From assembly GCA_020439945.1 (NCBI GenBank), contig JAGRPB010000007.1, positions 1 to 64,000 on the forward strand: DNA of 64,000 bases. Direction: 5' to 3'. Shown piece by piece: positions 2,962-31,925 of the stretch. This DNA comes from Verrucomicrobiia bacterium (GTDB taxonomy: Bacteria; Verrucomicrobiota; Verrucomicrobiia; Verrucomicrobiales; DEV007). The position numbers and the translations under genes were made by a program. The notes beneath the pieces are model-generated. The model was not told the origin of the DNA, searched no databases, and saw nothing but the letters and a program-made list of their open reading frames with translations. Each line of letters begins with the position of its first letter. Position 1 is the first letter of the stretch.

Positions 2962-3014
2962 GATTCGTCTCGGCCTGCCGTGGCGAATTTGCCCGTCCAA
3001 AGCGTCGAGAATCC

Positions 3015-3138
3015 ATTCCGGGAAATTCGGAGGAGCTTCTCATCGGTTTAGAACCCATTCCGGGAAATTCGGAAGACCTTCTCATCGGTTTAGAACCCGT
3101 TCCGAGAAATTCGGAAGACCTTCTCACCCGTTTGGACG
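3015..3138. repeat. tandem array, three copies of a 42-bp unit
   Basis: Units start at 3015, 3057 and 3099 with a period of exactly 42 bases. Each holds ATTCCGGGAAATTCGGAAGA-type sequence followed by CTTCTCATCGGTTTAGAACC. Differences between copies are single substitutions. Short open frames crossing it are repetitive by-products and are not called as genes. Confidence 0.85.
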
Positions 3139-3170
3139 CCTTTTCCGCCCGCCGAGCCCCCCCGAGACCG

Positions 3171-3230: not shown

Positions 3231-3273
3231 CGCCCTACCCACTTCGACGCAAGTCTCGGACGTTGTCTCGAGA

Positions 3274-3437
3274 ACTGCCTTCCAAACGTTTAGAAGCCGT
3301 TTCCCGAGCTGCGTACTGTCTTCCGAACGTTCGGAAGTCCATTCCCGGGCCGCGTACTGCCTTCTGAACCATCAGAAGCCTATTCTTGCGCGGAGAATTG
3401 CCTTCTGAACGTTCGAGAATCCGTTTCCACTGCCCGA
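3274..3437. repeat. tandem array, four copies of a 41-bp palindromic unit
   Basis: Units start at 3274, 3315, 3356 and 3397 with a period of 41 bases. Each has a short palindrome; the second copy is a perfect 18-base one, CTTCCGAACGTTCGGAAG at 3321-3338. The palindrome is followed by an ATTCCCGGGCCGCGTA-like block. The layout is related to the 42-bp array at 3015-3138. The 227 bases from here to the first cassette contain no supportable gene. Confidence 0.85.
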
Positions 3438-3678
3438 ATCCTTTCTGGCTGCCAAAGACGTCCATTCCGCGGTCGGCGTTCTTCCCTTGCCTTCGGGAGG
3501 GTTGATATCAGAGTTTCCCCGGCAGCCGAAAAACCTCTCTCTCAAGAACCCGGATAGAGGCACGCATCTCGCACAAAAACCTTGCTGGATCAGGGTTTTC
3601 TGGACAACATCTTGAGCAAAGGCTCCGCGGGATATCACCCGATGCGGGGCTACGAATAAAGACTGTTGGGCTAAGAAA

Positions 3679-4602
3679 ATGGACGACGGTAACGCATCGC
3701 TGAACCTGCCGACCGCTTGGACAAAGCCCCGGAAGCACGCGCGATTGCACATCCTAGTCGCTCACGAGGCATCGAGGGCGGTAATCATCAGACGCAAGCC
3801 GAGCAAGTCATTCCACATCATCTCGTGGGATACGGAGACCGATGCATTGGAGCATGGCTCGTGGTTCAGAGGACGAATCTACTCAGAGCGCTGTGATCTC
3901 TCGTGGGATGGACGATGGATGGTTTATCTAGCGATGGGATCCCACGGAGAGACTTGGAACGGTATTTGCGCTCCCCCGATGCTGCGCACTGTTGCGGATG
4001 TCCCCCATGGCGGGACGTGGGCAGGGGGAGGCGTCTTCTCACAAAGGGACAAGCTGCAATCGAATGATGTTTGGTATTCGGATCGCTCCCTCAGCGAGTT
4101 CTCCAATTCAAGCGACTTGCCATTCTCGATCGAGAGGATGCCTTCGGGGGGAGAAGTGTTTCCTATTCTCTCACATCGGTTGGAGCGCGATGGCTGGAAG
4201 CGCGAAGGAGATTTCGTTGAGGATCAGAAGATTTCACTGAAGCATTCCACCTACTCCACGCTTTGCGTCGGCGACCCCGGATGGTCATGGCAACCCACTC
4301 CTAGTCACCCGATTCTCAGGATGTTCTACAGAGGATACTTGGTGCCCGGTTACACCTTTGAGTTCCGCCTTGAGGATTCCGATCTGCTGGACCCAGAAGT
4401 CGACTGGGCGACTTGGGACTCCAAGGGCGACCTATTGGTTGCGCGTCACGGGGCAATTCAACGCTACACCTTGGAGAGCTTGAAGAATGACGCTCCGGCA
4501 TTTTGCGCCGATTTCGAGAGCCTCACCCCTCCAACAAACAATGCCCAACAAGGCGTGGGTGGCAACCCGCTACCCCGCCGCGAGTCGGAGATTGAACCGT
4601 GA
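3679..4602 (+). CDS. cassette 1 protein of unknown function
   Basis: A 307-residue protein begins 14 bases after the GTTGGGC core at 3665 and ends inside attC 1. I do not recognise a named family. It has no signal peptide and no membrane segment. It is rich in Trp, Ser and Gly, with repeated short blades such as SWDTETDALEHGSWF, CDLSWDGRWMVYLAM and WATWDSKGDLLVAR, which suggest a beta-propeller-like or WD/PD40-like fold. The last ~20 residues are encoded by the attC arm and are probably not conserved. It is the longest spacing-free start for the cassette, with no competing ATG nearby. The calling as a real gene rests on position, length and cassette context. Confidence 0.8.
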   Translation: MDDGNASLNLPTAWTKPRKHARLHILVAHEASRAVIIRRKPSKSFHIISWDTETDALEHGSWFRGRIYSERCDLSWDGRWMVYLAMGSHGETWNGICAPPMLRTVADVPHGGTWAGGGVFSQRDKLQSNDVWYSDRSLSEFSNSSDLPFSIERMPSGGEVFPILSHRLERDGWKREGDFVEDQKISLKHSTYSTLCVGDPGWSWQPTPSHPILRMFYRGYLVPGYTFEFRLEDSDLLDPEVDWATWDSKGDLLVARHGAIQRYTLESLKNDAPAFCADFESLTPPTNNAQQGVGGNPLPRRESEIEP

Positions 4603-4670
4603 TTAGAACCCTTTACCCTGAGTCGGACTGGCCCTCCCGGTAGCGGGTGCCACCACTTCGACGTTCGTGC
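4543..4670 (+). other. attC site 1
   Basis: R'' GCCCAAC is at 4543-4549 and the R' core GTTCGTGC at 4663-4670. The left arm 4555-4574 (GTGGGTGGCAACCCGCTACC) pairs with the right arm 4639-4656, leaving one G and one A unpaired on the left arm. R'' is the exact complement of the core at 3665-3671, which sets the 5' end of cassette 1. The predicted crossover is after G4663. Confidence 0.87.
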
Positions 4671-4698
4671 TAAAAAAAGAATCTAAACTACTCATATC

Positions 4699-4899
4699 AT
4701 GGAAGTAAGAATTGAATGTGATAATGATGAAGGCATTAATGCGATGGGAATGGCCGATCTCCATTCTCTCCCTCAAAAAGATGATACCATCGTAATTGAT
4801 GGATTAACTTTCCGAGTTGTCGGACGCCGATTTCACTCGGATGTCGTCGCAACGGAGTTTGATAGCGTTGTGGTCATCCTTCATCGAGAAAATGGATAA
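4699..4899 (+). CDS. cassette 2 small protein of unknown function
   Basis: A 66-residue acidic soluble protein starts 29 bases after the cassette boundary. It has alternating beta-strand character (VRIECD, DTIVIDGLTFRVVGRRF, DSVVVILHRENG) and could be a small SH3-like or PASTA-sized beta barrel, but no family is recognised. Base composition is clearly lower in GC than the flanking chromosomal genes. This agrees with acquisition by cassette transfer. A second small open frame follows in the same cassette (4906-5016). Confidence 0.72.
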   Translation: MEVRIECDNDEGINAMGMADLHSLPQKDDTIVIDGLTFRVVGRRFHSDVVATEFDSVVVILHRENG

Positions 4900-4905
4900 T
4901 TTTAA

Positions 4906-5016
4906 ATGAGGAAACATCCCAAGAGTAAGAACGTGAAAGAATTTATTCGCGAATCTGTTGATTCGCGATTTCCGAATTTTACGGATTTGGATTTTCTGAA
5001 TAATTGGGTCTGGTGA
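4906..5016 (+). CDS. possible 36-residue second cassette 2 product
   Basis: ATG at 4906 lies six bases after the stop of the preceding gene and opens a 36-residue frame: a basic start (MRKHPKSKNVKEF), then an acidic/aromatic end (NNWVW). The spacing suggests translational coupling. The frame is short and low in GC, and no homologue is recognised, so it may be spurious. The rest of the 330 bases between 4899 and 5233 is AT-rich sequence and attC 2. Confidence 0.35.
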   Translation: MRKHPKSKNVKEFIRESVDSRFPNFTDLDFLNNWVW

Positions 5017-5099
5017 CAGTTTTGAGTTTGCGAGATATATTTTCATAGAAGTATATTTTTAAGTAAATTTTCTTCAGTTCAGCGCGCCATCGAATCCGG

Positions 5100-5227
5100 G
5101 CACGAACAAGCCGTGGGAGAACAACCACCATCCCGTTTCGTGTCGGGTTCAGTAGGGTGGTTGTCTGCGGATTCCCGTGTAGGATTCGCGCCCTCGGATT
5201 GTGGTGTCTCCACTTTGACGTTGGCCG
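5100..5227 (+). other. attC site 2
   Basis: R'' GCACGAAC is at 5100-5107 and the R' core GTTGGCCG at 5220-5227. The left arm 5113-5133 (starting GTGGGAGAACAACCAC) pairs with the right arm 5196-5213 (GGATTGTGGTGTCTCCAC), leaving unpaired G and A bases on the left arm. R'' is an exact 8-base complement of the core that opens cassette 2 at 4663. Confidence 0.88.
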
Positions 5228-5232
5228 AAAAA

Positions 5233-6312
5233 ATGAAACCCGCCTTACTCGCTTCTACGTTTTGGTTCGGGTGCAGCGTCGGAATAGGCGTCTGGGCGGA
5301 ACAAGAATATCCTGAACCGGGTTGGCCTGGACCCGAAATGGTGGGTGATTGGGACACGTTCAACGAACAATTCAAGAAGTGGGAGATCGCCGAGTTTGAA
5401 TACGGAGGCGGCGTAGCTGACGGTGGATCGCTCATTTTCGAATTCAAAGCGACCGACGGCTCGGAGTTCGAAGTATTGGTGGCTTGCTCTTCGTGGTGGA
5501 CGAAAGAAGATTGGAAGAAGAAGCAGCAACCAATTTTTCTTTTATTTGAAACAAAGGCATATCGGATTTCGAAAGGCTCTGAGTCAGAGGAGCGATTGCT
5601 CTTAATGTTGAACGAAGCAGCTTCGGAATTAGAGGGCGTGGGTCGTAAGCGTACGATTTACATTGAGCGCCTGCATGAAATCGTAAAGTCACGCGCTCTT
5701 CACGGCCCTCACTGGCCCATGGGTGATCTCGACCTAAATGGCGCACCTGGTAGCTGGAACGAAAGAACATTTACGCTCCATCAAAATGCCTGGCCTTTTG
5801 ATCGCCTAGACCTGGAGGGAGCATCCGGTGATTGGAGCAAGCTTCTGGAGCAATTCAAGAAGTGGAGAATCGAAGATTTTATACTGTGGGATACCCTCGG
5901 AGATGTGTCCACCGTATTCAAATTTGCGACTTCTGATCGCTCTGAAATCGGGATCTTGGTGCCTACCATAAGACCATACTACCCACCCAAACCGAACACA
6001 GACGACCCGTTTGACAGATCTGATCCAGTATTCTTTCCCCAGGCGATCTACCTGCATTTCAACAGGCAGCTCTACCCTATTGAGGAAGGCAGTGAGGCCG
6101 AGGAAATACTGCTCGCGATGCTGGACCGTGCTGCCAAGAAGCTGACGGGTGAAGGGGCTCTGCATCCAGGATATATAGAGTGCCTGCGAGAAATCGTGAA
6201 ATCACGCAAGATTCCCCCTTTTGATGACTGGCCGTTTGACCGCTGCAACCTCGACGGCCAACAAGGCGCGGATGATCAACTGCCTGCCCGTGACCAGTCG
6301 AAAGCTCTATGA
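5233..6312 (+). CDS. cassette 3 protein with an internal duplication, unknown function
   Basis: The frame is open from 5113, but the upstream part is attC 2, so the ATG at 5233, five bases after the core, is taken as the start (359 residues). The first ~22 residues (MKPALLASTFWFGCSVGIGVWA) are hydrophobic and could be a signal peptide. The rest is two copies of one module. Copy 1 runs from LxEQFKKWEI-like FNEQFKKWEIAEFEY to IVKSRALHGP; copy 2 runs from LLEQFKKWRIEDFIL to IVKSRKIPPF. Shared features include TDGSEFEVLV / SDRSEIGILV and GSESEERLLLMLNEA / GSEAEEILLAMLDRA. Linkers repeat the WPxDRLDLxGxxGDW pattern. No known family is recognised. The stop lies inside attC 3. Confidence 0.8.
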   Translation: MKPALLASTFWFGCSVGIGVWAEQEYPEPGWPGPEMVGDWDTFNEQFKKWEIAEFEYGGGVADGGSLIFEFKATDGSEFEVLVACSSWWTKEDWKKKQQPIFLLFETKAYRISKGSESEERLLLMLNEAASELEGVGRKRTIYIERLHEIVKSRALHGPHWPMGDLDLNGAPGSWNERTFTLHQNAWPFDRLDLEGASGDWSKLLEQFKKWRIEDFILWDTLGDVSTVFKFATSDRSEIGILVPTIRPYYPPKPNTDDPFDRSDPVFFPQAIYLHFNRQLYPIEEGSEAEEILLAMLDRAAKKLTGEGALHPGYIECLREIVKSRKIPPFDDWPFDRCNLDGQQGADDQLPARDQSKAL

Positions 6313-6382
6313 AAATTAAAACCTCAACCCAGAAGTTGGAGCGCGCCGTCGGCAGGCAGTGACATCGCTTGAACGTTAGCTC
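6255..6382 (+). other. attC site 3
   Basis: R'' CGGCCAAC is at 6255-6262 and the R' core GTTAGCTC at 6375-6382. The left arm 6268-6288 (starting GCGGATGATCAACTGCCTG) pairs with the right arm 6351-6368 (GGCAGGCAGTGACATCGC), with three unpaired bases on the left arm. R'' is the exact complement of the core opening cassette 3 at 5220-5227. Confidence 0.88.
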
Positions 6383-6390
6383 TAAAACCC

Positions 6391-6897
6391 ATGCGGCTTT
6401 GCATTCTTGCAGCTCCGACGCTATTTCTTCTCTCGTGCGATAGTCCCTCGACTAGAGAGGCCGATACCGTTCCACGAGAAGAACCCAGGAAGACAGTTGT
6501 ATTCCAAGTGCCAGGTGATTTCAGCGAGACGGTTCGGACTCTTTGGCAGAGAAGCTATCCAGAGGATTACTCAGCGTTGGTCACACGAGCTAGAGAATCT
6601 CGGAGCGGGAAAGATCCATTTGCCGTTCCAATTGAAGTCCCGGACAGTGAGCTGACGCCTGAGACCTTTGGCCCCCTCGACTGGGGAAGAGCAATCGTCC
6701 CGCGGGTGTTCGATAAATTAGGCTATCCCCTCAAGGGGGGAGCCAAGGCTTACTACGAACCTGAGTCTGGGATCTTTAGGATCACACACTCGCCGGTCGC
6801 AATTGATTCATTTCGCGCGCGTTTTCCGGAGTTCAAACAAATACGAAACGAACAAGACGCGGCTGAGCAACCCGCTACCGCTGACGAGTCAAAGTAA
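6391..6897 (+). CDS. cassette 4 putative lipoprotein, unknown function
   Basis: A 168-residue protein starts eight bases after the GTTAGCTC core. The N-terminus MRLCILAAPTLFLLSC has a lipobox-like FLLSC with the lipidation Cys at residue 16, followed by a polar linker. The mature part is short and acidic and contains a patch PLDWGRAIVPRVFDKLGYPLKGGAKAY. No family is recognised. The last residues (EQPATADESK) are encoded by the attC 4 left arm and are therefore likely variable. Surface or periplasmic location is inferred from the lipobox only. Confidence 0.75.
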   Translation: MRLCILAAPTLFLLSCDSPSTREADTVPREEPRKTVVFQVPGDFSETVRTLWQRSYPEDYSALVTRARESRSGKDPFAVPIEVPDSELTPETFGPLDWGRAIVPRVFDKLGYPLKGGAKAYYEPESGIFRITHSPVAIDSFRARFPEFKQIRNEQDAAEQPATADESK

Positions 6898-6973
6898 CCC
6901 TCTTAACTCAAACCCATAACCTGTTTCGGCGCGGCGCTCCCGGTAGCGGTTGCTAGCGCTTAAACGTTAGGAC
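6846..6973 (+). other. attC site 4
   Basis: The R'' box AACGAAC is at 6847-6853 and the R' core GTTAGGAC at 6966-6973. The left arm 6859-6880 (starting GCGGCTGAGCAACCCGCTAC) pairs with the right arm 6941-6959 (CGGTAGCGGTTGCTAGCGC). The hairpin arms closely resemble attC 1. R'' matches the opening core of cassette 4 only partly (five of eight), unlike cassettes 1-3. Confidence 0.82.
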
Positions 6974-6986
6974 ACTTCCAGCGCGC

Positions 6987-7301
6987 ATGACACTTCGATT
7001 CCTTATTTTGATTTCGCTCATGCTGGCAGGCTGCACTCACATTCCACGGTCTGAAGCACCGCCCGCTTCTGTTTCAGCACCACCGTCGCGGACAGTTGAG
7101 TCTTTTCATTTCATCGGAGCTGCCACCACACTCCAAGATGTTATCGCCAGACTTGGCGCACCGGATCGGGATGTTGGTAGCGGGATATACATCTATGCCT
7201 ATCGCTTGACTGATGGCAGCGATGTTTTGGTTGGTTCAGCCGACGGTTCGCATATTCTTTACGTCAGACACGGCCAGGATATTTTGTTTGAGAAACCATG
7301 A
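6987..7301 (+). CDS. cassette 5 small lipoprotein, BamE/SmpA-like shape
   Basis: A 104-residue protein starts 13 bases after the GTTAGGAC core. MTLRFLILISLMLAGC is a clear lipoprotein signal with lipobox LAGC (Cys at residue 16), followed by a Ser/Pro linker. The mature domain (TLQDVIARLGAPDRDVGSGIYIYAYRLTDGS) has the "xxLxxxLGxPxxxxGxGxxxYxYxLxDG" pattern seen in small lipoproteins distantly like SmpA/OmlA (BamE). That family link is tentative. Outer-membrane anchoring is inferred from the lipobox. Confidence 0.8.
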   Translation: MTLRFLILISLMLAGCTHIPRSEAPPASVSAPPSRTVESFHFIGAATTLQDVIARLGAPDRDVGSGIYIYAYRLTDGSDVLVGSADGSHILYVRHGQDILFEKP

Positions 7302-7308
7302 AGACGTG

Positions 7309-7401
7309 GTCTAAGCATGCGGTGCAGCGAACCCGGTTTGAGCGTCGCGTTTGCAATCGTGGCGTCCCGTGGGCCGGGTTGCTGAGTTTGGGTCGTTGAG
7401 T
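7309..7401 (+). other. attC site 5, shorter, last of the array
   Basis: The R' core GTTGAGT (7395-7401) fits GTTRRRY exactly. The right arm 7374-7384 pairs with CAGC(G)AACCCGG at 7325-7336, with G7329 unpaired. The R'' box GTCTAAGC (7309-7316) is a one-gap match to the complement of the core opening cassette 5. At about 93 bases it is shorter than the other four sites. Beyond it the chromosomal terminator at 7435 begins, so the array ends here. Confidence 0.68.
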
Positions 7402-31836: not shown

Positions 31837-31908
31837 GTAGAACGGGTCTCCCGGCCCGTTCCTGCACCGTGCCATCGCCGCCTGAACGGGCCGGGAGACC
31901 CGTTCTAC
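31837..31908. repeat. perfect 24-bp inverted repeat with 24-base loop
   Basis: The left arm 31837-31860 (GTAGAACGGGTCTCCCGGCC then CGTT) is exactly complementary to the right arm 31885-31908, with a 24-base loop. GTTTTGCTTTT follows, so it could act as a terminator for the PIG-L gene as well as being a dispersed element. The two adjacent palindromes, this and 31926-31964, fill the gap to the next gene. Confidence 0.85.
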
Positions 31909-31925
31909 GTTTTGCTTTTCTCCCC

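Follow-up and report, generated by a model that had tools for sequence, protein, structure and literature searches.

Results

The window, meaning the whole 64-kb stretch of DNA analysed here, belongs to a draft genome from the Verrucomicrobiota (G000, 90% complete and 5% contaminated, 5.9 Mb in 474 contigs), in which it is contig C464; on its plus strand it carries a genuine integron cassette array of five cassettes. Cassette 1 (3665–4662) holds an ORF of 307 aa (3679–4602), cassette 2 (4663–5219) an ORF of 66 aa with no recognised product (4699–4899), cassette 3 (5220–6374) an ORF of 359 aa with an internal repeat and, again, no recognised product (5233–6312), cassette 4 (6375–6965) an ORF of 168 aa for a likely lipoprotein (6391–6897), and the terminal cassette 5 (6966–7401) an ORF of 104 aa, also a likely lipoprotein (6987–7301). 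Searches of Pfam and NCBIfam matched none of the cassette products to a family, in agreement with the initial annotation, in which all five had been left unrecognised or tentative. An Rfam scan of the window at gathering thresholds returned zero matches.

The attC sites were identified using a covariance model (R2) trained on 24 sites, all from loci other than that of the window, with compensatory changes in 16 of 16 stem pairs of the underlying alignment. Scanning the 64-kb window produced exactly four attC sites (E 4e-22 to 2e-16), all on the plus strand: 4543–4669 (95.4 bits, E 3.6e-22), 5101–5226 (72.2 bits, E 2.2e-16), 6256–6381 (95.3 bits, E 3.8e-22) and 6847–6972 (91.3 bits, E 3.7e-21). 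Apart from these, no match fell below E = 0.08. The weak match at that value, a near-perfect long inverted repeat followed by ACGTT (31837–31915), is probably a different palindromic element and not an attC. The distance from R''-AAC to R'-GTT is near-constant in the four sites (115–116 nt), and attC sites whose R and L boxes pair delimit the cassettes. The plus-strand, regularly spaced cassette array proposed from the letters alone is borne out by an independent model. Single-sequence folding of the attC bottom strands gave weak z-scores only (−0.9 to −2.0), and the covariance model together with covariation was therefore relied upon instead. Of the five attC sites originally proposed, four were recovered, but the fifth, at the end of cassette 5 (about 7320–7401), showed just a weak hairpin and no match to the model.

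Each of the first three cassettes opens with a core that is the exact reverse complement of its own R'' box: GTTGGGC and GCCCAAC in cassette 1, GTTCGTGC and GCACGAAC in cassette 2, and GTTGGCCG and CGGCCAAC in cassette 3. All three pairs had been pointed out in the initial annotation and taken to mark a cassette that has been circular, which we judge to be the right reading. In cassette 4 core and R'' are not exactly complementary (GTTAGCT versus GTTCGTT).

Directly in front of cassette 1 lies an attI (3549–3667, plus strand; match to attI sequence profile R1 with E 9.5e-24) that ends at the GTT crossover at 3665–3667, the junction reading GACTGTT|GGGC. It contains a putative cassette promoter Pc (3580–3608, TTGCTG-N17-CAACAT). 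The array had been described as lacking both attI and intI; the former part of that description does not hold, while the latter does locally, as the 3.5 kb between the contig start and the attI yielded no IntI. Elsewhere in the genome a single protein, encoded on contig C166, scored above the cut-off of the integron integrase family TIGR02249 (322 bits versus 265); its ORF is 456 aa long, with the SAM-like and catalytic domains starting at residue 119. The genome thus has an integron integrase, but its gene is not beside the window array. Further upstream in the window, two families of 41–42-bp tandem repeats with palindromic CTTCCGAACGTTCGGAAG units (3008–3143 and 3269–3428) directly precede the flank of the attI, and a minus-strand ORF (109–720) resembles a REP-associated transposase by eye, with no match in Pfam.

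At least four attI are present in G000 (on C166, C464, C461 and C375), three of them without intI. All four possess the GTT crossover and the conserved promoter-like element and are followed by cassettes. The window attI is 82% identical over 132 bp to the attI divergent from the IntI gene on C166, and 96% and 93% identical to the copies on C461 and C375, respectively. Homology between the copies stops exactly at the GTT crossover. On the other side it continues into an intI-free upstream flank common to the three orphan copies (3434–3548, plus strand; to −233, and to −346 with C461), with 88–90% identity of the window to C375 and C461 across 234–347 bp including attI, and therefore an already-orphan unit was copied. 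In the window and on C461 and C375, the core following attI has its match in the R'' of the first cassette. On C166 the match (GTTAGGGC/GCCCTAAC) was seen by inspection, being absent from the automated results because R' there reads GAT instead of GTT. In locus L016 (5647–5656), the attC behind the intI-linked attI has GATAGGGC in place of an R' starting with GTT, which could mean that the core is mutated or atypical or that the sequence was misread. Over ~135 bp the second attC of the window shares 89% identity with the attC (C166:5525–5659) that comes first after the intI-linked attI. On C461, a minus-strand element that is probably a group II intron and includes a reverse transcriptase (L023, 6990–7830) splits the second of the cassettes that follow the orphan attI. 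Fifteen further attC sites are scattered over contigs C180, C446, C430, C287, C221, C126, C421, C447, C83, C75 and C12, and no attI was found near any of them, even at E up to 10, with some of these contigs ending close by.

Searching 142 relatives with profile R1 revealed 120 attI-like sites in 32 of them, the highest counts being 13 in G057, 11 in G081 and 10 each in G001 and G003; all of these figures are minima, since scoring was restricted to the best candidates in each genome. An IntI or a remnant of one lay within 3 kb upstream of only 15 of the 120 sites, with at most two such sites per genome. We define an orphan attI head as an attI homologous to the IntI-linked attI, with no IntI within 3 kb upstream and with same-strand attC downstream, a description that fits the window attI. 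Among the additions from a further draw of 400 genomes of the phylum was G431, whose 5.7-Mb genome is one single contig and has four attI, two of which are beside an IntI and two orphan. The orphans (at 1,281,093 and 1,951,978) are hundreds of kb from any IntI, identical to each other at 93 of 95 positions and to one IntI-linked attI at about 80 of 95; one of them is followed by an array with eight or more attC.

When the attI core pattern was scanned against 84,980 species genomes, 92 stretches were obtained, and the 80 listed came from Verrucomicrobiota MAGs with the exception of one Burkholderiales MAG; among the stretches listed, single assemblies held 10–11 copies. The closest relative of an attI copy was in the same genome for 54 of 60 copies (maximum of 23 in shuffles), which points to dispersal or homogenisation inside lineages. 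Judged from these surveys, the multi-attI arrangement is a lineage trait that recurs across the family. Viral contigs and plasmids yielded no attI, and a mobile vehicle was rejected on this ground. Upstream genes common to orphan sites of different genomes amounted to little besides IntI itself, and the copied unit was not found to start at any fixed point on its left, common flanks measuring roughly 90–350 bp and in occasional cases more than 1 kb. Tandem attI units, about 0.7–1.6 kb apart and each with its own cassettes, occur in G001 (L123 and L124, on C210 and C240) and G057 (L092 and L098, on C77 and C57), and the G001 unit starts with a sequence (TCGGGTAGGAnCGGGGATTGAACCCGCTCCCCCCACACC) that resembles the terminus of a group IIC intron.

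Among 59 attI with downstream sequence, attC sites were detected by R2 on the same strand within 3 kb downstream in 49, upstream in four, all of these being tandem heads, and on the opposite strand in none. Some of these attC had been used in training R2, but not those of the window, G431, G428, G380 and G131. In a test independent of the covariance model, the R'' of the first cassette exactly complemented the core after attI, and folded, in 24 of 41 cases as against 4.5% with permuted cores. The closure was replicated in 50 unused loci of the pattern scan (31/50 versus 6.7% permuted, maximum 19%). By these position and closure tests, orphan attI head genuine cassette arrays. A promoter-like element, TTGNNN-N17-NANNNT, about 87 bp before the crossover, was present in 45 of 61 attI copies (shuffled mean 2.6, maximum 7) and is plausibly the cassette promoter Pc. 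A similar motif (TTGANN-N17-NANNNT) was seen in the central loop of 10 of 30 attC sites of ~115 nt, for example at L024:12056–12180 on the minus strand, against a shuffled expectation of about 0.4 (spacings 15–18); a cassette might thus provide the promoter for the cassette that follows. In G057 one cassette occurs, at 93% identity, in two orphan arrays with homology confined to the cassette and bounded by its ends, as would be expected if cassettes move between heads. The same first cassette (76.5% identity over ~655 bp, crossover to attC) is also found in G001:C407 and G067:C30, behind attI heads of two genera.

Discussion

Integrons have been described with a single attI beside intI, the cassettes nearest attI being the likeliest to be expressed (PMC9024848). 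The genome studied here shares with a sedentary chromosomal integron a TIGR02249-family IntI, a divergent attI with GTT crossover, attC cassettes and a Pc-like promoter, but differs in that its attI heads are numerous and dispersed, the majority with no intI next to them. With four attC and no IntI nearby, the window array has the at least two attC and the missing neighbouring integrase by which a CALIN is recognised, and the initial annotation had called it one. That label fits the attC array, but not the conserved attI and promoter in front of it, which make it one of the genome's attI-headed loci, of which there are at least four; the window array is not a plain CALIN because its own attI is homologous to the IntI-linked one.

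We consider it likely that the window array belongs, as one of several attI/promoter heads, to a distributed integron in which a single IntI serves all of them in trans. The architecture itself, with four attI, one IntI, attC sites, crossover-precise junctions and a family-wide pattern, is directly observed. We infer that the present IntI acts on the orphan attI and that Pc is active, and the precision of the junctions at the crossover lends indirect support to IntI-catalysed attC × attI recombination. IntI would be made from C166 and would probably insert circular cassettes into the orphan attI in trans, recombining the folded bottom strand of attC with double-stranded attI, and the local Pc at each orphan attI would then express the newest cassette. 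The orphan heads would arise partly by copying, as the intI-free upstream DNA shared by three of them in G000 suggests, and in other genomes partly through decay of a neighbouring intI. The wider proposition, that one IntI acts in trans on many attI/Pc heads (up to 13 per genome), with the newest cassettes captured and expressed in parallel and the heads multiplying within lineages, we hold to be slightly favoured. The basis for reading the array in this way is all comparative. The IntI-linked attI is just 82% identical to the G000 orphans, and G000 is a draft MAG in which other arrays are without any attI. Furthermore, G003, G002, G058 and G428 have attI heads and no IntI above the cut-off, so some heads are evidently stranded.

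Alternatively, several complete integrons may each have lost intI, leaving dead attI-headed arrays on which nothing acts now. Loss of intI is one of the routes proposed for CALINs, together with off-target insertion and rearrangement (PMC8618304), and IntI remnants or pseudogenes lie beside a few attI (G428:C23, G131:C31, L160, L164, L180, L231 and G057:C48), so intI loss also creates orphans; G003, moreover, has 10 rather worn attI. Most orphans, however, have no IntI trace within 4 kb upstream, the core, promoter and crossover are still conserved where IntI is present, and first-cassette closure remains exact. Decay explains some sites but not the three G000 orphans, which are copies of one intI-free unit (233–346 bp flank), and as a general account we regard it as unlikely, although copying and intI loss probably both operate.

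An assembly or binning artefact, with attI copies from different organisms or strains mixed in one bin, might be suspected in a draft MAG of 474 contigs with 5% contamination, yet dozens of independent assemblies show the same arrangement, copies of attI group with others from their own genome, and binning artefacts are ruled out by the two orphan attI on the single contig of G431; we give this explanation very little credence. The suggestion of a plain CALIN formed by off-target cassette insertion, which would agree with the lack of intI in the window and the attI-free attC clusters elsewhere in G000, is refuted by the 119-bp attI before cassette 1, 82–96% identical to those on three other contigs, including the IntI-linked one, and its probability is practically nil.

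The distributed integron that we favour has one reported likeness. The Shewanella prophage M16-3 contains a complete integron and one CALIN with its own attI (PMC9892861), and this second array, which lacks intI, likewise stands behind an attI of the same type. It is a single case in an inactive prophage, whereas here 2–13 copies per genome are found across a family. Our literature search, which did not extend to subscription papers and preprints, found no multi-copy or orphan attI beyond it. Off-target cassette insertion at attG sites, cited in PMC12444791, similarly places cassettes away from the integrase, but attG are degenerate genomic sites and not true attI copies of about 120 bp. Outside class 1, IntegronFinder searches no attI (PMC9024848).

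The present observations change how CALINs should be read, as many CALIN-like arrays here have real, promoter-bearing attI heads. A further question that they raise, and one that can be tested, is how attI comes to copy itself to new sites. A single enzyme may fill and express cassettes at many chromosomal places at once. The scattered attI/Pc heads suggest a way round the one-promoter bottleneck, and if this is true, the newest cassettes would be expressed side by side and would not have to wait in line behind a single promoter.
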